Of a stretch of DNA of 20,310 bases, positions 1,572 through 20,310 are shown piece after piece; the first letter of the stretch is position 1; each line of letters opens with the position of its first letter. Source of the stretch: a virus. Under the pieces are notes generated by a model that worked only from the letters and a program-made list of their open reading frames with translations, ran no database searches and was not told the DNA's origin. The DNA lies in IMG/VR virus record IMGVR_UViG_3300035663_001220, positions 1 to 20,310 of that record. The stretch is one strand, 5' to 3'. The translations under genes and the position numbers were made by a program.

Positions 1572-3016
1572 CAGTTGCACCGGCTCCCGCAGCTTGCGTA
1601 CCCAGCGATGTCCACCCAGTTGTCCCGTTTGCGTTGGTGCGTCTCGCGGGAGGTCTTCAGCAAGATCATCGCCAGTGCGACGTCTCGGGGCTCGAATGTC
1701 ATGCCGTCTTTGAGCTTGCAAAGGAACAACGCCGACCACATGCCAGCGGTCCGACGGAAGTCCTGGTCCGGTGGCCCGTATTGAGCTTGGCGACTGCCCC
1801 GCGTGATCCGAGATGCTTCGGCCAGGATGTCTTCGTCGTCGTCGTCTTGCTCGGCGAGACCCATCCGTTCTACTTTTGAAATGTGATGTTCGCTTAGCTG
1901 TACGGCAAGGCTGATCAGGCTCGTCCAGTAGCACGCATACGTGATTCGATTATCGTAGTCGATGTTCAGGTGTCGCACCCGCTTGCCGAGCCACATGGCC
2001 AGGGTCAGCTCGGCCACAGCTCCATTGCTATTCTCCCAGCCTGGAAGCAGGACAATCTCGTCGCACCGCAGGACGGCCTCGAGGCACCGACGCACGGTCT
2101 TTTGGAGGTCCATGGTTTTGGGGAATGTGCAGGCGTCAGGATTTGCATGCGATGGATTGGCAAACGGGTCGAAACCATCGTGCTTGCGATCCTCGTCCGC
2201 TGGGCTGATAACTTCGTTGCCGGCGTCACGCAGCTCCTTGGCGACTCGATCAAACAGGGGGTAGTTGAACCAAGCCACCCCGCGCATCGGGCCAGCGATG
2301 TACAGGACTCGCTTGCGTTGGATTGGCTCGGTAATCGGCTCCGCGTCTGAATCGTACGCATTCGGTACCGTGTATCCGATCGTGATCTTTTCGTTTGCTT
2401 CGCAGCGCTCGAGCTCTCCAATGTCGATCGAACTGTCCGGAATTTCCGGACTGTTGGGTTCAGTTGTTAAAGATTCCTTGATAACTGGTTCGGGCTCGAC
2501 GGCAACTGTAAAGGATTCCTTGACAGTTGGTTCGGGCTGCGGAGTCGGATCCTGGACGAAGTTGGGGTTGTCCTGCGGATGCATTTCTGCGCTGACGACA
2601 TCCTCCAGCTTCCATCGCTCTAATGGCCTGTATGGGTCTGTACCCGAATCATAGACCGGTTGCAAAAGATCGCTGTGGATGCTCACTAAAGTGCCTGCGA
2701 GGCAACGTAGTAGCTGTTTTCCGTAAGCATCACTTGAAAGGATCGTGTGGACCTCTAGTGGAAGTCCGAACGGAAGCCCATCTTCCTCCCGAAACACTCT
2801 AACCTTTTCCCCATTCCGAAAGCTCATCCGACGGATTCGTGTCTCCCCATAACAGACCCAAGCCCGAACCAGTACTGGCACCCACTGTTGGCTTGCTGCA
2901 CTCCATTCCCAGTCTCCTGGTGCTGTCATCTCTTGGATCTTCAATGCTTGCCAACCGCACGGGATTGCCACTGGAAGTGGCAACACATGATAGTTGCTTT
3001 TTGGACTGCTGCTCAT
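1571..3016 (-). CDS. Fusion of DUF4406 and DUF6378 domains with unknown N-terminus
   Basis: A 481-residue multi-domain protein. Residues 1-145 form a Trp-rich domain I do not recognise. Residues 155-235 are an acidic Pro-rich linker with degenerate repeats (PTVKESFT, PVIKESLT). Residues about 237-350 match DUF4406, a nucleoside 2-deoxyribosyltransferase-like fold: YIAGPMRG at 239-246 and LPGWENSNGAVAELTLA at 324-340 carry the usual glycine-rich strand and the Asn/Glu active-site-like region. Residues about 396-477 match the phage family DUF6378 (EASRITRGSR, YGPP, DVALAMILLKTSRE, DNWVDIAGYA). The two domains are known from phages but a fusion is notable. Nucleotide or nucleoside chemistry is inferred, not shown. 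A strong ribosome site (AGGAGG) lies about 8 bases before the ATG. Confidence 0.85.
   Translation of the reverse strand: MSSSPKSNYHVLPLPVAIPCGWQALKIQEMTAPGDWEWSAASQQWVPVLVRAWVCYGETRIRRMSFRNGEKVRVFREEDGLPFGLPLEVHTILSSDAYGKQLLRCLAGTLVSIHSDLLQPVYDSGTDPYRPLERWKLEDVVSAEMHPQDNPNFVQDPTPQPEPTVKESFTVAVEPEPVIKESLTTEPNSPEIPDSSIDIGELERCEANEKITIGYTVPNAYDSDAEPITEPIQRKRVLYIAGPMRGVAWFNYPLFDRVAKELRDAGNEVISPADEDRKHDGFDPFANPSHANPDACTFPKTMDLQKTVRRCLEAVLRCDEIVLLPGWENSNGAVAELTLAMWLGKRVRHLNIDYDNRITYACYWTSLISLAVQLSEHHISKVERMGLAEQDDDDEDILAEASRITRGSRQAQYGPPDQDFRRTAGMWSALFLCKLKDGMTFEPRDVALAMILLKTSRETHQRKRDNWVDIAGYASCGSRCN
2464..2538. repeat. Degenerate 42-bp tandem repeat inside the DUF4406 fusion gene
   Basis: Two copies of a 42-bp unit, ending at about 2496 and 2538, share AAAGATTCCTTGA / AAAGGATTCCTTGA and GGTTCGGGCT. 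They encode the repeated linker EPEPVIKESL / QPEPTVKESF. The period is 14 codons, so copy-number change would keep the frame. It is a simple linker repeat. Confidence 0.75.
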
Positions 3017-3052
3017 TCTCTCATCCTCCTAAGAAAAACCACCCCAAAATCC

Positions 3053-4066
3053 TTACGCTGCTCCCCTGCGGATCAGCGGTGATAGGTATGACACGCCGTC
3101 GATGATCGGGATTTGAAGATTCAAATGCCCGAGTCCCTTTTGCACCAACTGGATTCCGTAACCGTTGACCCAGTCGGTCAAGTTTTGATGCATGTAGAAG
3201 GGCTGTAGCTGGCACAGGCAACCGGGGTTCCAAGCTCCGATCGGGCCCGAGGCCACCGTCCGCTTGGTCGCCATGTCCATGCGGTGGGTATGGCCGAACC
3301 AGATGTTCGAGTTGTACTTGGCCAAGTGCGCGGCCGCTGCGGCCTTGGAAGTGAATTGGCCATGGGTGAAGTAGCAATTGTCCCGCAGGATCGTTCCGGG
3401 GACATGGCACCCGTCGTACCACTGACCCTGCTTGTAGATGGGGATCTTCCGCTTGTCGAGCTGCAACACCGTCTCGGTCGAGAACAACGTGTTGAGCATC
3501 TTGACGTCGCCTCGGGATCCTTTGCCCGTTCGCAGTGCGTCGGTGACGATCCACTTCTCGATGCGTCGCTCGTGGTTTCCCTCGAGGTACTCGATCGTCG
3601 CTTGTGGTGCTGCCGACTGCAGCGCATCGAGGAACTGATTGGTCGCTTGGCAGTCGTCCTCGAAAGTGTAGTCGGTCTCGGCCACATAGCCCCAGGTATG
3701 GTGCTCGGCCAAAAAGCCACCGCAGTCGAGATGATCACCCAGGAGGATGATCGACGAGGGCTTGAGCATCGCAATGTCCGCCAGCATCGCCGACGCTGCC
3801 GACTGATCGACGAAGCATCCATGCGAATCGGGGACGATCACTCGCAGGGTGACACCGCCCTTGGAGCTTTTGGCCTTGCGCGTCAGGTTGAGTTTCACCG
3901 ACGAGCTTCGCAATCGATCAAGGGTCTGCTCGAGCAGATCTCGTGCCGACCGCTCCCGCTTGAGCGCGACCTCAAGCTGCTTGAGCTGTGCTCTGGCGGT
4001 CAAGAGTTCTTGGGACTCGGTCGCCTCGTTGCGGGTCCAAGCTTTGATCTGTTTTTTGAGGCTCAT
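3053..4066 (-). CDS. Calcineurin-like metallophosphoesterase
   Basis: A 337-residue protein with an N-terminal basic coiled coil (about 15-55) and a metallophosphoesterase domain from about 73 on. All blocks of the family are present: PDSHGC (D80, H82), GDHLDCGG (D111, D114), GNHER (N164, H165), FTHGQ (H235) and GHTH (H259, H261). These residues normally bind two metal ions and hydrolyse phosphoesters. The substrate cannot be told: candidates are nucleic-acid ends, cyclic nucleotides or protein phosphates. Phages often carry such enzymes near replication genes, as here. The coiled-coil extension is unusual for the family and may give oligomerisation. The start overlaps the upstream stop as ATGA (4063-4066). 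Confidence 0.92.
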   Translation of the reverse strand: MSLKKQIKAWTRNEATESQELLTARAQLKQLEVALKRERSARDLLEQTLDRLRSSSVKLNLTRKAKSSKGGVTLRVIVPDSHGCFVDQSAASAMLADIAMLKPSSIILLGDHLDCGGFLAEHHTWGYVAETDYTFEDDCQATNQFLDALQSAAPQATIEYLEGNHERRIEKWIVTDALRTGKGSRGDVKMLNTLFSTETVLQLDKRKIPIYKQGQWYDGCHVPGTILRDNCYFTHGQFTSKAAAAAHLAKYNSNIWFGHTHRMDMATKRTVASGPIGAWNPGCLCQLQPFYMHQNLTDWVNGYGIQLVQKGLGHLNLQIPIIDGVSYLSPLIRRGAA

Positions 4067-4356
4067 GAAGTGACCTCGGCCATCCAGGTGTCGAAACCAA
4101 ATCGCCCCACCTTGCAGACTCTCGCATTCACGAATCGGAGAAGGTCCGCTTTGCCCGGGAACAGGTCTCGCGACTCACCGCCCTTGTGCCAGTCGATGCA
4201 AAGCGTCTTGAGCTCTGCGGCTTTTTTGGGCTCGTTGGCTTCCAGGACCTGAAACCAGGTCTGCATGCCCTTTTTTCGTTGGTACTCTGTCGCCGACTGG
4301 CGAGCTTGCTCCAGGAGGCTGTTCGGTTTCGGGCTGGTCTTTTTGCTGGCTGGCAT
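4063..4356 (-). CDS. Unknown small basic protein
   Basis: A 97-residue protein. Two ATG codons stand in tandem at 4359 and 4356; a GGAGG sequence is one base before the first and four before the second, so the second is preferred. The N-terminus is basic and polar (PASKKTSPKPNS), followed by a probable helix (LLEQARQSATEYQRKKG) and a compact C-terminal part with several tryptophans and phenylalanines. I do not recognise a family. It lies between the replication-initiator-like gene and the phosphoesterase, so a replication or DNA-binding role is plausible but unproven. Confidence 0.7.
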   Translation of the reverse strand: MPASKKTSPKPNSLLEQARQSATEYQRKKGMQTWFQVLEANEPKKAAELKTLCIDWHKGGESRDLFPGKADLLRFVNARVCKVGRFGFDTWMAEVTS

Positions 4357-4380
4357 CATGCCTCCATTGGGGGTGAAAAG

Positions 4381-5283
4381 TTAAGCGACCTCGGCGGCCA
4401 CCTGCGGTGCGACGTTCGCACCGGGTTTGGCTGGTGGGGGTGGTGGCGGTGGGACTTGCAGTTTGAGCTCGTCCCAGCTTTCGCCCCTGGCTTGGCACAT
4501 GCGAACCATCACCATTCCGAGGTAGCCTTTGGGCTTGTCGACCTGGTGCTCTCGGCAACGTGCCAATGCGTCCAGCAGGCCTGCTTTGTCGAAGTCGGTG
4601 CCGACCCAGGCGATCCGCCAGATCTCGTCGCGACTCAGGCCCAGCCGGATCCCGCGAGCTTGCATTTCGCTCATGCTCGCTGCGGTTTCCCGAACCGATT
4701 CCCGAAATTCAAAACCCGCCGACGTCCAATCGATCGAACGACGGGTCTTGTCTGGTCCGGTTAGGTTGGGTCCTGTCCTGTCCTGTTCGGTACGGTCCGG
4801 TCGTGTGCTCGGGGGATTCCCCTGAGGCGTCGGGGGGTTGTCGGGGGATTCCCCCGAAGTGCTAGAATCCCTGAGTTTTTCCGCTTGGTCCGCAATCTCC
4901 TGAGCGATCTCACCCGCTGGGACAGCCTCAAGCCATCCGATGTCCTCACGTGAGGCCCAAGCGAACAAGTCCCGGAAAACGGACTCGGCAAAACCAGTGA
5001 TCCTGGCAACGTGGGAGATCTTCAGGGAAATCCCCCGACTGTTCCCCAGCGTCCCCCTGACATGGCAGGAGGCAGCGTAGGCACAAAGGGCGCACCACGC
5101 GCCATAGATCGCTGGAGCTCGTTCGGCGTCGAAGTCCTCCAGCATGGCTTGATAGCCGGTCGACGAAAAGCCGACTGGCATTGCGATCCAAGTGAGCTGC
5201 TTTAGCTTGCGAGATTCCGCTCGCTCGAATGTCTCAGTCCACTTGGCGATTCGGTAGACGGTCCCAGTCCCGGAGCTATCCAT
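4381..5283 (-). CDS. Replication-initiator-like protein with repeat-rich linker
   Basis: A 300-residue protein. The N-terminal part (about 10-120) has the look of phage replisome-organiser or O-like proteins: YRIAKWTETFERAESRKLKQL, a dosage-like Trp/Ala helix block (PAIYGAWCALCAYAA) and a winged-helix-like stretch ISLKISHVARITGFAESVF. Residues 140-182 form a low-complexity Pro/Asp/Thr linker. The C-terminal half (about 185-270) is helical and ends in PPPPPPP and a basic-poor tail. The layout (DNA-binding N-terminus, repeat-coded linker, C-terminal partner domain) resembles lambda O, where the linker DNA is the origin. No close family can be assigned by eye, so the function is an inference. 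A GGAGG site lies about ten bases before the ATG. Confidence 0.7.
   Translation of the reverse strand: MDSSGTGTVYRIAKWTETFERAESRKLKQLTWIAMPVGFSSTGYQAMLEDFDAERAPAIYGAWCALCAYAASCHVRGTLGNSRGISLKISHVARITGFAESVFRDLFAWASREDIGWLEAVPAGEIAQEIADQAEKLRDSSTSGESPDNPPTPQGNPPSTRPDRTEQDRTGPNLTGPDKTRRSIDWTSAGFEFRESVRETAASMSEMQARGIRLGLSRDEIWRIAWVGTDFDKAGLLDALARCREHQVDKPKGYLGMVMVRMCQARGESWDELKLQVPPPPPPPAKPGANVAPQVAAEVA
4754..4856. repeat. Iteron-like and palindromic G-rich repeats, candidate replication origin
   Basis: Within the linker-coding part of the initiator-like gene, GGTCCGGT occurs at 4754-4761 and 4794-4801, TCCTG occurs three times in tandem at 4771-4785, and a palindrome CGGGGGATTCCCC occurs at 4810-4822 and again, extended by a CG pair, at 4842-4856. 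A related GGGAAATCCCCCG lies near 5025-5037. Repeats inside an initiator gene are how lambda-type origins are arranged. Origin function here is inference. Confidence 0.4.
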
Positions 5284-8578: not shown

Positions 8579-8643
8579 TGTCGCCTCCGCTGGAAAAGAC
8601 TATCAACCAAACCGCCTCGTACGTCGCTCGTACGACTGGCAAA

Positions 8644-8713
8644 GCCCTGAGCAGGATTCGAACCCGCGCTTCCTGGATTACTCCAGGTGTTCCTCCGCAA
8701 TAACTTTCAGGGC
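8644..8713 (-). tRNA. tRNA-like gene, identity uncertain
   Basis: On the minus strand a 70-base cloverleaf: acceptor GCCCTGA with TCAGGGC (7 bp), a T arm GCGGG-TTCGAAT-CCTGC with the canonical loop, a D arm with GTT/AAC pairing and GCGG in its loop, and an anticodon arm CCTGG/CCAGG with only six loop bases (AGTAAT), where seven are normal. By the usual U33 rule the anticodon would read AAT, but the short loop makes this unsure. It may be a degenerate tRNA or another structured RNA. No CCA is encoded. Confidence 0.5.
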
Positions 8714-8718
8714 TAAAA

Positions 8719-8787
8719 GAACCGGACAGGGCTTGAACCTGCATTTCGACGCACCAAAGGCGCGAGACTTACTTAGTCGACCGGTCC
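8719..8787 (-). tRNA. tRNA-like gene, possible Gln (TTG) anticodon
   Basis: On the minus strand, 69 bases: acceptor GGACCGG with CCGGTTC (7 bp with one G-T), T arm GCAGG-TTCAAGC-CCTGT, a short D arm GAC/GTC whose loop lacks the usual GG, and an anticodon arm of four pairs (GCGC/GCGT) with the seven-base loop CTTTGGT. That puts T33 before TTG, a glutamine anticodon. A different register with TTT (Lys) is possible. It is only five bases upstream (minus sense) of the other tRNA-like gene, so the two form a tandem pair. Confidence 0.5.
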
Positions 8788-8863
8788 TCGCAACACTGGG
8801 CAGTTGCCCGCTCAACGTTCAAGCTTGCGAGAAGCACCGCCATGACAAGGCCATTGCGACTCG

Positions 8864-11919: not shown

Positions 11920-12162
11920 ATGTCGGCAAATTCTACGGACACCACGCAGATCCTCGGATTGCTCCAGCAGTCGATCGAGGCTGCGATGCGGAAATCTACA
12001 ATACCTCGCGAAGCTTTCTCCAGGGAGGAAGTCGCGGAAATCCTCGGTGTCTCTGTCCGTACGATCGATGGCTTGATCGATTCCCAGCAGCTCCGAGCCG
12101 TCAAAATCGGTAGGCATCTGAGAATCGACCGCAAGGAAATCGATCGGTTTTTAGGCCGGTAG
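11920..12162 (+). CDS. Excisionase-like helix-turn-helix protein
   Basis: An 80-residue protein. Residues about 33-78 form an HTH_17 or MerR-like winged helix: FSREEVAEILGVSVRTID is the helix-turn-helix, then GLIDSQQLRAVKIGRHLRID carries the wing, ending with RKEIDRFL. This is the excisionase family. The N-terminal 30 residues are helical and less conserved. The stop is three bases before the integrase start, so the two form a unit. Its job would be to bend att DNA and direct excision, or to act as a repressor. GGAG lies five to six bases before the ATG. Confidence 0.88.
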   Translation: MSANSTDTTQILGLLQQSIEAAMRKSTIPREAFSREEVAEILGVSVRTIDGLIDSQQLRAVKIGRHLRIDRKEIDRFLGR

Positions 12163-12165
12163 TGA

Positions 12166-13317
12166 ATGAGCTCGATCTACAAACACAAGCACCGAGGGTG
12201 GTACTGTTGCGTTACCTTGCCGTCTGGCCGACGATGCCAGATCTACTTGGGCAAGGTCACCAAGGCCGGTGCAGAGACCGTGCGACGCAATGTCGAGCGT
12301 CTGATGGCGAGCAACAATGTCGGGATTGAACCGGATCCCCAGATTCAAGCTTGGCTCGCGTTGTGTGAGGCTCGATTCCGTGCCAAGCTCCAGGCCGCTG
12401 GGCTACTTGCCAAGTGGAAACCGCCGGCCGCCTCGCCGCTGCTCTCGATCGTTTGGGATGCTTATGTGTCCAAGCGAGCCGACTTTGCCGTCAGTTCGCT
12501 CAAGGGCTTTAAAACTGCTCGGAAGCATGCGGTGGACAACCTTGGCGATCGTCTGATCAGTGAGATCACCATCGCCGACGCGAAACACTTCGCACTTAAG
12601 ATGGAGTCCGTCCACGCCGCCGCCCACGCGAAAAAGATCGTCGAACGGACCAAGCAAGTCCTCCAGGACGCCGTCGATTCCCGACTTTTGGCGACCAATC
12701 CATTCGCTGGGGTCAATCTGCGAGCCAAGATCGATCGAACCAAGGATCACCATTTGACCGAGGCCGACGCGATGAAGGTGCTCGACAAACTCGGATCGAT
12801 TCAGGCAAAGGCCTCGTTTGTGCTGGCGAGGTTTGCAGGCCTGCGGATCCCTCACGAGCTGCTGCCCCTGACATGGCAACATGTGGACTTTGAGAAGCAT
12901 CGAATCACAATCCCGACGGGGACCAAGACCGGCCAACGTGTCGTGCCGATGGTCCCGATCGTCTATGAGCACATGCTACGCCTGGCTGAGACTGCCGACA
13001 CATCGCCTTGGGTATTTAGCCGAGCTCGGGCCAGTGCGGGGACAACCCTGCGACGGTGGCTCGAATCGGCGATCCTGCTAGCTGGGTTGAAGCAATGGCC
13101 CAAGCTATGGCACAATCTCAGGGCCTCATGCCGAACCGACATGGAGGAACGGTTTGCTTCGCACGTTTGCGAGGCCTGGTTTGGCCATTCCAAGCGGGTA
13201 GCCAGGGATCATTACCTGATGGTCACCGACGAGCACTGGACCAAGGCGATCGAGAAACCGAAGGAAAAGAGCGATGTACGGCGCGGGTCCAATGTACGGC
13301 GCGACGTACGGCGCTAA
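12166..13317 (+). CDS. Tyrosine recombinase (integrase 1)
   Basis: A 383-residue phage-type integrase. An N-terminal arm-binding-like region (to about 85) is followed by a SAM-like core-binding domain (about 95-180) and the catalytic domain. The catalytic set is complete: R227 in FAGLR, K254 in TGTKTG, H316 and R319 in WHNLRAS, H341 in WFGHS and nucleophile Y350 in RDHYLMV. The DHYLMVTDEHW ending is typical of planctomycete integrases. The last residues (DVRRGSNVRRDVRR) come from the GTACGGCGC DNA repeats. It should carry out site-specific integration and, with the upstream protein, excision. The C-terminus coded by repeats is odd and may be where the gene has joined att DNA. Confidence 0.95.
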   Translation: MSSIYKHKHRGWYCCVTLPSGRRCQIYLGKVTKAGAETVRRNVERLMASNNVGIEPDPQIQAWLALCEARFRAKLQAAGLLAKWKPPAASPLLSIVWDAYVSKRADFAVSSLKGFKTARKHAVDNLGDRLISEITIADAKHFALKMESVHAAAHAKKIVERTKQVLQDAVDSRLLATNPFAGVNLRAKIDRTKDHHLTEADAMKVLDKLGSIQAKASFVLARFAGLRIPHELLPLTWQHVDFEKHRITIPTGTKTGQRVVPMVPIVYEHMLRLAETADTSPWVFSRARASAGTTLRRWLESAILLAGLKQWPKLWHNLRASCRTDMEERFASHVCEAWFGHSKRVARDHYLMVTDEHWTKAIEKPKEKSDVRRGSNVRRDVRR

Positions 13318-13476
13318 TCGGGTCCGAGCGTGTTTGAGCGTGTCCGAGCGTGTCTCGGTACGTAAAAAAACCCTGGAAAACCAGGGTTTATGAAGTGTTT
13401 AAGTACCCCTGCAAGGGGTCGAACATACATCGAGGAACATTAGATAAAATGCGGTTTCACCAGGAGCGTACGGCGC
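13276..13476. repeat. GTACGGCGC repeat cluster, possible attachment-site arms
   Basis: GTACGGCGC lies at 13276-13284, 13294-13302, 13306-13314 and, past the terminator, at 13468-13476. GAGCGTGT occurs three times at about 13326-13353. A 6-bp hairpin, ACCCCT/AGGGGT, is at 13405-13419. Short direct repeats next to an integrase gene are often integrase arm sites or att sequence. This is inference; no duplicated att core is visible in the window. Confidence 0.5.
13364..13389. terminator. Bidirectional-type terminator after integrase 1
   Basis: AAACCCTGG (13368-13376) pairs with CCAGGGTTT (13381-13389) around AAAA. The minus strand continues with TTTTTTT (a run of A at 13364-13370 on the plus strand), and the plus strand ends in TTT. 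It can stop the integrase transcript and any minus-strand transcript entering from the right. Confidence 0.75.
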
Positions 13477-14328: not shown

Positions 14329-14461
14329 AAAGTTTTCGGGGATTTGAACGCAAAAAAGTTTTGAGCCCAAAATTTCGCGGGTCCCTCCTGACGGTCCCCC
14401 CTTCCCGCCCCCAATGGGAACAATCGGGAGATTAGACACACTTTCTTTTTGTAACCCTCGT

Positions 14462-14490
14462 TTGACGATTTTTGAGACCTTTGCTGTACG
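14462..14490 (+). promoter_or_regulatory. Possible promoter of the lipoprotein-to-portal operon
   Basis: TTGACG (14462-14467) is followed after 17 bases by TGTACG (14485-14490) with a TGC just before it, an extended -10 pattern. The -10 itself is a poor match. The first gene starts at 14534. Confidence 0.35.
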
Positions 14491-14533
14491 GTGGTCCTGT
14501 TATCTGATCGGACCTACTACTCAAGTCTCAAAC

Positions 14534-16801: not shown

Positions 16802-18508
16802 ATGATGCTGCTCGATCAATACGGAAAGCCGATCGACACCAAGGCCCTGGCTGCCGCTCGTCGGATCCAGGATCGAGCCAAGCGAATGGACTCGCTGTCG
16901 GCCTCTTACGATGCTGCGGCCAACACCGCCGAGACCCAGAAGCATTGGCGATACGCCGACAACCTGTCCGCTGCCGCTGCCAACTCGGTATCGGTTCGCA
17001 AGACACTGCGCGAGCGATCTCGCTACGAATGCATGGAAAACAATAGCTTCGCGAAGGGGGTCGTTCTGACCCTGGCCAACGATTGCATCTCGACCGGGCC
17101 AAGTCTACAGGTGATGCTCCCTGACACTACTGCCTCCCGCATGATCGAGGCAAAGTGGCGCAAATGGGCAAAGGACGTGCGGCTGGCGAGCAAGCTTCGC
17201 ACTGCCCGGATCGCTAAGGTTATCGATGGTGAGACCGTCATACTCAAAGGCAACAACCCGCGATCAAAGAACGATGTAAAGCTGGATCTACGAGTCATCG
17301 AGTGCGACCAACTTGCGACGCCTTACTTCGCCGACGGACTGCCAAACAAAGTAGACGGTATTGAGTTCGACGACTTTGGAAATCCAACGGTCTACCACAT
17401 CCTTAAAGGACACCCTGGGGACCGATGGCCGCTGGACGCCTTCGAAAAAGAGGATGTCGACCCCGACGACATCATCCACCTGTTCCGCGCCGAGCGACCT
17501 GGACAGATGCGCGGAATTCCCGAGCTGACACCAGCGCTGCCACTGTTCGCAATGCTGCGGAGATACACCCTCGCGGTGATCACCGCTGCGGAGAATGCTG
17601 CGGACTTCTCGGCGATCCTCAAGACCCAATCCAATGCCTTTGATTCTGCGTCCGATGGCATCGACGACATAGACCCGTTTGATTTCGTGCAGATCGATCG
17701 AGGACTGATGACTTCCCTGCCCAAAGGCTGGGAAATGGTCCAGTTCGATCCGAAGCAACCAGTGACGACCTATACCGAATTCCGCAATGCGATCCTTGGC
17801 GAGATTGCTCGTTGCGTACACATGCCCAAAAACAAAGTCCTCGCGGATTCAAGCGGGTACAACTATTCCTCAGGCCGGTTGGACCACCAGACCTATCACG
17901 AATCAGTTGCCATTGAGCGATCCCAGTGGTGGGAAATCGAAGCCCTCGATCGGATCTTTGGTTGGTGGCTCGATGAAGCCTTGCTTATGGACGGCTACTT
18001 GCCAGCGATCGAACCGACCGATGAGATCCCCAAGGTTTGGCGATGGCCACCACAACGCGATGTGAACCCTGCGGAAATCGCAGACGTCAACATCGAACTG
18101 ATCCGAGCCGGCCTCAAGACTCGTCAACAATACCTGATCGAGCAAAACATCGACCCCGAGGCTCACGCGCAGCAGCTTATCGAGGAAGGCTGGGTAAATC
18201 CTGACAGGCCACCCGCTCCTGCAGGCGCTGCACCTGGTGCTCCGAGTGCTTCCGGTGCGCCCGGAGCTGCGGCCCAAAGTACGGGCGCTGCCGATTCGGA
18301 TTCCAGCCAACCCGCTCCAACCGGGGAATTTGCGAACATGTCCCGTTTGCAACTCACCCGCAACTGGCGAGCGATCGAGGACACCCTCGGTAAGATCGAG
18401 GAAGGAATCTGGACGACGTCTCGAGCGAGAGTGTTCCTGGGGTCACTTGGACTCAAGGAAAGCACGATCAACAATCTTGTGTCGGAGTACGAAGAGCAAC
18501 CAGCGTAA
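16802..18508 (+). CDS. Phage portal protein, lambda family
   Basis: A 568-residue protein. The lambda-family pattern is clear near the N-terminus: VSVRKTLRERSRYECMENN (63-81), then SFAKGVVLTLANDCISTGP (82-100), followed by conserved core stretches such as IPELTPALPLFAMLRRY and RDVNPAEIADVNIELI. It ends with a Pro/Ala/Gly-rich linker (about 465-505) and a helical tail. Twelve copies form the DNA channel at a capsid vertex and the packaging-motor dock. It follows the gpW-like and small membrane genes, in lambda order. The ATG (doubled) has only a weak AAAGAG upstream. Confidence 0.93.
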   Translation: MMLLDQYGKPIDTKALAAARRIQDRAKRMDSLSASYDAAANTAETQKHWRYADNLSAAAANSVSVRKTLRERSRYECMENNSFAKGVVLTLANDCISTGPSLQVMLPDTTASRMIEAKWRKWAKDVRLASKLRTARIAKVIDGETVILKGNNPRSKNDVKLDLRVIECDQLATPYFADGLPNKVDGIEFDDFGNPTVYHILKGHPGDRWPLDAFEKEDVDPDDIIHLFRAERPGQMRGIPELTPALPLFAMLRRYTLAVITAAENAADFSAILKTQSNAFDSASDGIDDIDPFDFVQIDRGLMTSLPKGWEMVQFDPKQPVTTYTEFRNAILGEIARCVHMPKNKVLADSSGYNYSSGRLDHQTYHESVAIERSQWWEIEALDRIFGWWLDEALLMDGYLPAIEPTDEIPKVWRWPPQRDVNPAEIADVNIELIRAGLKTRQQYLIEQNIDPEAHAQQLIEEGWVNPDRPPAPAGAAPGAPSASGAPGAAAQSTGAADSDSSQPAPTGEFANMSRLQLTRNWRAIEDTLGKIEEGIWTTSRARVFLGSLGLKESTINNLVSEYEEQPA

Positions 18509-18510
18509 AA

Positions 18511-18972
18511 ATGATGACGAAGCATAGTGATGAATGCTACACACCGCCGTGGGTCTTTGAGGCTCTTGGTGTTCGCTTTGATTTAGATGTGTGTGGCGTA
18601 CATGAGGGTGCCTGCGTCCCGGCAGATCGGGTCTATACAATAGCCGACAATGGTCTGGTGCAGCCGTGGTGGGGACACGAATTCGTGTGGATGAATCCGC
18701 CATACTCTAAACCCCGTCCCTGGGTAGAAAAGTTTATGCAACACCGCAACGGAATTGCATTGCTACCACTGGCAAAATCTGCGTGGTTTAACATGCTTTT
18801 CAACGATTGTAAAACTGCTTGTCCGCTCCCTCCCTCGGTTCGCTTTATAAAAAATGGCAAGCCGCACTCAATTTTTTCGGGAGTGATTTTGTTTGGTTAT
18901 GGAGAGCAGGCGGTGGATGCAATCGCCCGGTTTCGCGAGTACAAGCCCATAGGCATGTCATGTCAAGCCTGA
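18511..18972 (+). CDS. Phage Dam-type adenine methyltransferase
   Basis: A 153-residue protein of the phage N6-adenine methylase family (PF05869). DECYTPPWVFEAL at 7-19 and FDLDVCGVH at 23-31 are the family's opening motifs, and NPPY (62-65) is the catalytic motif IV that flips and methylates adenine. GIALLPLAKSAWFNML (81-96) and the closing strand FSGVILFGYG (122-131) are also family-like. It would methylate phage DNA and so protect it from nucleases or mark it. The start follows the portal stop by two bases and overlaps integrase 2 at the end. It looks somewhat more AT-rich than its neighbours. An in-frame second ATG (18514) is also possible. Confidence 0.88.
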   Translation: MMTKHSDECYTPPWVFEALGVRFDLDVCGVHEGACVPADRVYTIADNGLVQPWWGHEFVWMNPPYSKPRPWVEKFMQHRNGIALLPLAKSAWFNMLFNDCKTACPLPPSVRFIKNGKPHSIFSGVILFGYGEQAVDAIARFREYKPIGMSCQA

Positions 18973-20003
18973 CGCACGAGGCCAAGACTCGGCAAGGCTA
19001 TCGCCTCCGAGTCTACACCGGTGCCGGACGTCGCTCGATCTGGCTCGGACGCATCACCGAGCCCGAAGCGATCGCGATTCAGCGACACGTGGACGAGATC
19101 ATCGCCGCCCAGACCGCAGACCTACCGATTCCAAGGCAAACAGCCCTTTGGCTCGATAGGCTCGATCCGGAAATCAAATCGAAGCTCACTTGCATCACCG
19201 GATCCATCCGCACCGTCCGGACTGCGATCGACGAGTATCTCAACGCGAAGCGAGATCTGCTTGCCACATCGACTGCCGAATCGGTCGGTCGCTCCCTGGC
19301 CTGGCTGTCTGATGCCTGCGGTGATCGGCGAATCGATGGAGTGTCCCCGGAGGAAATTGCCACCGTCTATGATGCGCTAGAGCAAGGTGCGTCCACCCGG
19401 GGAAAGATCGCCAAGGATTGGAAAGCCTTCTTCCACTGGTGCGAGGATAATCGATGGATCGTTGCCAATCCGGCCAAGCGACTCAAGACCACGGTCGCGG
19501 TGCGTGAGAAGCGATTCGTTTCGGTGGAGACCATCGAGCGAGTCCTCCAGGCCTGCGAAGATCCCGAGCTGCGGCTGGTGATTGTGCTGTCTCGATTCGG
19601 AGGCCTGCGAATTTCCAGCGAAATTCGCGACTTCGCAGAGTCCTCGATCGACCGGGCCCTAAAACGGATCAAGATCACAGACACCAAGCGAGGGGTGGTC
19701 CGGGAGATCCCGCTATTCCGTGAGATCGCTGCCGAGCTCCCCGCACCAGGCGTCGAACTGTTGCCAACGATCGCAAGCCTATCTCACTCGGGAATCACAC
19801 AGCGATTCCTCGAGGTTGTTCGCAAGGCAGGAATCGATCCATGGCCGGTGCCGTGGCATTCGATGCGAGCCACTCGCGAAACCGAACTGATCACCGCTTT
19901 CGGACTGGCGACCGCTTCAAAGTGGATCGGCAACTCGGAAAAAGTCGCGATGACGTCTTACGCGATCATTCCGGACTCGGACTGGGAGAAGGCTGATTTG
20001 TAA
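18960..20003 (+). CDS. Tyrosine recombinase (integrase 2), divergent
   Basis: A 347-residue tyrosine recombinase beginning MSSLTHEAKTRQGYRL. A longer reading to 18819 is rejected since it runs through the Dam gene. Core-binding and catalytic parts are recognisable: R217 in FGGLRISSEI, K243 in TDTKRG, H300 and R303 in WHSMRAT, N325 where integrase 1 has His (KWIGNS) and Y334 in MTSYAII. The GNS version is also known in other recombinases of this type, so it may be active. The strand after R217 is unusual. It overlaps Dam by 13 bases, so it is carried on the same transcript as a structural operon, an unexpected place for an integrase. It is clearly different from integrase 1. Confidence 0.88.
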   Translation: MSSLTHEAKTRQGYRLRVYTGAGRRSIWLGRITEPEAIAIQRHVDEIIAAQTADLPIPRQTALWLDRLDPEIKSKLTCITGSIRTVRTAIDEYLNAKRDLLATSTAESVGRSLAWLSDACGDRRIDGVSPEEIATVYDALEQGASTRGKIAKDWKAFFHWCEDNRWIVANPAKRLKTTVAVREKRFVSVETIERVLQACEDPELRLVIVLSRFGGLRISSEIRDFAESSIDRALKRIKITDTKRGVVREIPLFREIAAELPAPGVELLPTIASLSHSGITQRFLEVVRKAGIDPWPVPWHSMRATRETELITAFGLATASKWIGNSEKVAMTSYAIIPDSDWEKADL

Positions 20004-20048
20004 CTCTTGTTGGACGGTTTTTCAGGGGCGAGTGGTAGTCTCGTCCCC

Positions 20049-20310
20049 ATGAGCAAATCGACCCGGGCAACCACGAAACGCAAGCGACAAGACGCCAACG
20101 TCATCGTCGCATCGTCCAAGAGCAACTTGGAACTGCGCACCAGTGGCGACTCCATCGCATTGCAAGCCGCAGACCCTAACACCCCCGACGCGCTGCCCAG
20201 TTTTAGTGGGATCGCCTATACCGGGGGTGTCATGCATCCCAAGCTTGCAATCCAGTGGAACGGTCCGGTGGTGATTGACCTAGCAGGCCTCGACGCACCG
20301 GTCGGACCAG
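20049..20310 (+). CDS. Probable prohead protease, 5' part only
   Basis: An open frame from ATG at 20049 to the end of the window (87 codons, no stop). The basic leader (STRATTKRKRQDANV) is followed by a beta-rich start, SFSGIAYTGG, and NGPVVIDLAGLDAP. These features recall the start of prohead protease-type proteins that follow portals in planctomycete and lambda-like phages. Active-site residues lie beyond the window, so the assignment is by position and by short motifs only. An imperfect hairpin (GGGGCGAG with CTCGTCCCC) lies in the 45 bases before the ATG. Confidence 0.6.
   Translation, partial: MSKSTRATTKRKRQDANVIVASSKSNLELRTSGDSIALQAADPNTPDALPSFSGIAYTGGVMHPKLAIQWNGPVVIDLAGLDAPVGP

Follow-up and report, generated by a model that had tools for sequence, protein, structure and literature searches.

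A conserved, probably active tyrosine recombinase between the portal and protease genes of two viral clades, beside an apparently replaceable methyltransferase

The stretch of DNA analysed here, hereafter the window, comes from an uncultured bacterial virus and is the incomplete IMG/VR record IMGVR_UViG_3300035663_001220 at its full length of 20,310 base pairs (bp). Its right-hand end carries a tyrosine recombinase gene, which we call int2, together with a Dam-type methyltransferase gene, and both lie between genes for the portal and a protease. The locus comprises four genes:

16802-18508, plus strand: portal gene (PF05136, E-value 2.3e-56).
18511-18972, plus strand: Dam-type N6-adenine methyltransferase gene (Dam), regarded below as cargo (PF05869, E-value 6.6e-15; phrog_111, E-value 4.1e-26).
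18960-20003, plus strand: int2, putative late-operon tyrosine recombinase of 347 amino acids (from alignments, catalytic residues and a lambda-Int fold).
20049-20310, plus strand: 5' part of a gene for a protease::capsid fusion, truncated where the record stops (from relatives).

A preliminary description of this DNA, made from its letters and reading frames, had given the order as portal, Dam, integrase and protease in one orientation with an overlap of 13 bases, and this is borne out: int2 has its ATG at 18960 and its stop at 20003, sharing 13 bp with Dam (18960-18972). The label 'prohead protease' is correct for the N-terminal part of the last gene and wrong for the whole, which in relatives encodes a product of 762 amino acids that joins a head-maturation protease to the capsid protein (in the relative L006, phrog_4523, E-value 1e-42, and PF25209, E-value 1.4e-18).

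Scans with int2 and the portal as queries recovered two viral clades, A and B, and int2 lies 3' of the portal gene in 62 of the 63 contigs checked, at 50-100% identity. The int2-bearing contigs comprise 44 from clade A, the window counted and many of them near-copies, and 18 from clade B or related to it; L193 and L196 represent further lineages bearing the gene. Most clade A contigs have int2 directly after the portal gene, with identities of 74-100% and a length of 347 amino acids wherever the gene is complete, without a single insertion or deletion. When cargo is absent from clade A, int2 begins at the portal stop codon or only a few bases from it, mostly through a GTGA overlap. Clade B is more distant (approximately 51% identity for int2 and 73% for the portal), and there int2 occupies the equivalent place with variable DNA on either side. 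In every contig with int2, the order and orientation of portal, int2 and protease are unchanged.

The preliminary description had taken a fixed order without empty sites as the observation that would speak against an inserted module. For int2 the order is nearly fixed, and there is one empty site, in L190, the single contig without int2 that the clade B portal query returned. Compared with L100, L190 lacks approximately 1,033 bp, from 2 nucleotides 5' of the int2 start to near the int2 end, and the join shows 3 bp of microhomology. Deletion is the simpler reading, because portal identity and flanking genes place L190 inside clade B; the contig is only 5.9 kb long, and int2 could sit elsewhere in that genome.

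Portals from genome contigs that are 43-52% identical to that of the window mostly abut or overlap the protease::capsid gene directly, and L214 and L216 also have the portal adjoining the protease. These comparisons uphold the earlier claim that wider relatives keep the two genes side by side. Viral groups with portals 49-62% identical have other genes at the junction, encoding a cement-like protein or large proteins, among them a GDSL lipase-like one. The junction therefore varies across the family, with int2 as a derived and later retained occupant in clades A and B. A separate observation on the portal concerns L096, whose portal frame (2741-4411) carries on into a long C-terminal tail; the YscX-like Pfam match of this tail is weak (E-value 9.4e-6) and probably reflects coiled-coil similarity.

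We predict the int2 protein to be a tyrosine recombinase that is probably active. It matches the phrog_1 integrase family (E-value 1.9e-24); its score against PF00589 is sub-threshold, at 18.6 bits for a curated cut-off of 27.1, which is a sensitivity limit of one model and not a defining trait. Residues R217, K243, H300, R303, N325 and Y334 are invariant in 13 of 13 sequences, and asparagine at position 325 is usual among planctomycete integrases (24 of 32). An AlphaFold2 model (predicted local distance difference test score 78.5, predicted template modelling score 0.49) has the core-binding and catalytic domain fold of tyrosine recombinases, and Foldseek matched it to lambda Int (E-value 1.3e-9), to Tn1549 Int and XerA, and more weakly to phi3T SroF. 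Ratios of nonsynonymous to synonymous substitution (0.09-0.16 for int2; 0.06-0.09 for the portal) indicate that int2 is kept under purifying selection across the two clades. In a tree, int2 forms a single clade (support 100/100) on a long stem (2.19), apart from int1, the other integrase of the window, to which it is approximately 26% identical. The int2 alignment gave 172 pattern hits in genome contigs, among which tblastn confirmed no relative; an int2 profile found distant integrases only, and no ortholog, in 392 sampled planctomycete genomes; and sequence searches returned no match in 50,697 phage records or among PDB chains.

Dam is a confident member of its family (55.6 bits against PF05869, curated cut-off 28.1) and has an NPPY motif. 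Its GC content is 50.2%, against 57.2% for the portal and 59.0% for int2. The slot between portal and int2 holds Dam in the window and in L093, L099 and L101, whose copies are 63-64% identical; in L003 an unrelated PF01555 methylase takes its place, and other genes occupy the slot in clade B. A Dam scan of viral contigs returned close matches only from the window's own sample. GATC is not depleted in the window, with 214 sites observed and 195 expected. Judging by these comparisons, Dam is cargo, recently acquired and with a history independent of int2. Both clade A genomes with a methylase have ATGTCAAGC at the start of int2, compared with GTGAGCTCG in most others, and the portal tail (SEYEL) of Dam-bearing clade B genomes is similar to that of clade A. 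Given these shared start codons and portal tails, the cargo may move with its flanks, and Dam has probably passed from one related phage to another through homologous recombination in the genes on either side.

The preliminary description had suggested instead that Dam and int2 may form a single passenger, or a satellite, whose own integrase brought both genes in together. Both genes do lie between portal and protease, co-oriented and overlapping, but nearly all int2-bearing genomes are without Dam and L003 has its unrelated methylase. A search for direct repeats at the ends of 18509-20048 gave none beyond chance. With int2 kept in 62 of 63 contigs and Dam occasional and replaceable, we consider insertion as a unit highly improbable.

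Three further features bear on how int2 might be expressed and on what it might act:

14448-14502, plus strand: copy 1 of a 55-bp terminator/promoter-like element (35.2 bits).
19997-20051, plus strand: copy 2 of this element, which overlaps both the stop of int2 and the start of the protease gene (nhmmer, 49.2 bits).
20025-20048, no strand assigned: inverted repeat inside copy 2, GGGGCGAG-TGGTAGT-CTCGTCCCC.

The 55-bp element consists of TTTGTAAC, a short hairpin, a T-run and TGnTAnnnT. Seven int2-bearing genomes, partial records among them, have two copies each, one 5' of the first late operon and the other between int2 and the protease ATG. The hairpin preceding the T-run shows 91% pairing over 17 sequences, many of them close relatives. 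This architecture suggests a terminator combined with a late promoter, and the first late operon would therefore end with int2, the capsid gene having its own start. A recombination switch for the capsid genes, as envisaged earlier, gains no support, given the constant order and orientation and the apparent promoter of the capsid gene. We also considered whether the two 55-bp copies could be paired recombination sites on either side of the first late operon; we rejected this, as their left flanks share no arm sequence.

The element goes together with int2, and a scan of int2-less outgroups, G008 among them, did not detect it. This association would fit a recombinase that had turned into a DNA-binding regulator of late promoters, and there is a precedent in MrpR of SPbeta, a recombinase fold that became a repressor and lost recombinase function (PMC10516654); the fold match to phi3T SroF, a tyrosine-recombinase-like repressor, points the same way. 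However, L190 retains the element while int2 is not in its contig, and int2 keeps its catalytic residues. We regard a regulatory role as improbable. MrpR/YopR of SPbeta and SroF of phi3T do resemble int2 in being tyrosine-recombinase folds outside the main integrase.

The inverted repeat at 20025-20048 has 9-bp arms and a 7-bp centre, with 8 of 9 pairs matched in the window and 7-9 of 9 in most of clade A. Its position directly downstream of a gene with intact catalytic residues raises the prospect that int2 is a working integrase with its attP (phage attachment site) core in the repeat, so that integration would part portal from protease; gp50 of Tyrovirus has a candidate inverted-repeat site in an equivalent relative place (PMC9703825). 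Yet pairing 3' of int2 drops to 4-5 of 9 in L056, L059 and clade B, the same bases also fit the promoter, no contig is split at 20025-20048, and an excisionase gene and repeat-rich attP-like DNA adjoin int1 instead. This explanation we find about as doubtful as the regulatory one. In part of clade B a palindromic repeat, GTAGCTATCGC...GCGGTGATAGCTAC, lies 3' of int2 (L090 at 4779, L096 at 5731, L098 at 5932, L104 at 3197, and others), with a further copy approximately 3.8 kb downstream in L090, L096, L098, L099 and L104; it was rejected as an int2 site, being confined to some clade B genomes.

The features associated with int1, and a possible genome end, are as follows:

11920-12162, plus strand: xis-like excisionase/helix-turn-helix gene upstream of int1 (phrog_66 excisionase, E-value 1.3e-9).
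12166-13317, plus strand: int1, likely lysogeny integrase (PF00589, E-value 5.7e-10; phrog_1, E-value 7.1e-36).
13276-13476, no strand assigned: attP-like region of int1 (GTACGGCGC four times, GAGCGTGT three times).
14409-14425, no strand assigned: cos-like site (CCCCAATGGGAACAATC).

The repeats beside int1 surround a palindromic sequence resembling a tRNA T-arm (13371-13424). Such repeat clusters adjoin int1 in four genomes (the window, G003, G006 and G007) and adjoin int2 in none; the attP with arm-type repeats that marks a lysogeny integrase is not present beside int2. On this anatomy of xis and attP-like repeats, int1 and not int2 is probably the chromosomal integrase. Contigs of several lineages start right after GGGAACA at the cos-like site, and contig G002 seems to span a full cos-to-cos interval, with only approximately 12-13 bases missing at the join. 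This suggests that the site forms the cohesive ends of genomes of approximately 39 kb. G001, G003 and G006 look circular, because they carry end repeats.

A few phages are already on record as having recombinases, of no known function, within structural operons. The nearest case is Tyrovirus gp50, a tyrosine recombinase with no known role whose gene is followed by a candidate inverted-repeat site (PMC9703825). Like int2, gp50 belongs to the structural module, where co-transcription with structural genes has been proposed for it, and its genomes have further recombinases. Whereas gp50, described as Xer-like, lies between neck and tape-measure genes of Bacillus phages of approximately 160-170 kb, the place of int2 is between portal and protease, and its phages have genomes of approximately 39 kb. 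The gp50 candidate site has 11-bp arms and a 6-bp core directly 3' of the stop; the inverted repeat after int2 resembles it, with 9-bp arms and a 7-bp centre, but its pairing is not maintained in divergent lineages. Integrases with the lambda, Tn1549 or XerA fold share with int2 the predicted fold and full catalytic set, and int2 differs from them in its head-operon location and in having no adjacent attP repeats or xis. Dam matches the PF05869/phrog_111 phage methyltransferases in family and NPPY motif, although its score against the NCBI equivalog TIGR01712 falls short of the cut-off (45 against 97 bits) and it is late-operon cargo. The literature searched, whose coverage was incomplete, gave no report of a recombinase at the portal-protease position.

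The location of portal relatives and the int2-related integrases of planctomycete genomes suggest that the hosts are planctomycetes. Elsewhere in the window, the early region (8642-8788, minus strand) has a gene for tRNA-Gln(TTG) together with a tRNA-like gene that is incomplete, and a gene at 498-872 on the minus strand has an RF-1 (peptide chain release factor) domain (E-value 9.8e-17).

We favour, at a probability of roughly 70%, an old, late-expressed and probably active recombinase that shares one slot with separate, replaceable cargo. A single acquisition of int2 at the portal-protease boundary would predate the split of clades A and B, and the gene would thereafter have been inherited with the phage as the final gene of the first late operon, its product made late in infection as a predicted active tyrosine recombinase. 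Dam would have been inserted later between portal and int2, and might, as a reasoned guess, methylate progeny DNA before packaging and so protect it from restriction. As to substrate, int2 may act on a separate site, for example in resolving multimers of phage DNA or in alternative integration, a proposal that we hold tentatively and at less than even odds. Less likely again is the bolder suggestion that int2 represents a distinct recombinase family confined to the late phase and made alongside the portal. On that view the enzyme would recognise a short phage-DNA site, perhaps 20025-20048, and so resolve or rearrange the genomes of the progeny ahead of packaging, and its neighbourhood would be an exchangeable slot whose cargo includes methyltransferases.

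Several points weigh against the favoured account. The 44 clade A contigs do not amount to 44 independent events, the int2 query itself supplied most of the clade B contigs, and L190 indicates that int2 can be lost. A strict sigma-70 promoter scan found nothing, and the argument for cargo exchange rests on a few codons. The 22-base core of the int1 attP-like region has no match in the 392 planctomycete genomes, and the collections searched yielded no integrated prophage, so that the role of int1 rests on anatomy. The activity, substrate and late expression of int2 are inferred, as are the protective role of Dam and the way in which cargo is exchanged.

The role of int2 is nonetheless testable, since the same genomes carry a separate lysogeny module and since complete, apparently circular genomes and a natural deletion are available. 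More broadly, the portal-protease boundary looks like a reusable cargo site, and this bears on how phages gain methyltransferases that may counter restriction.
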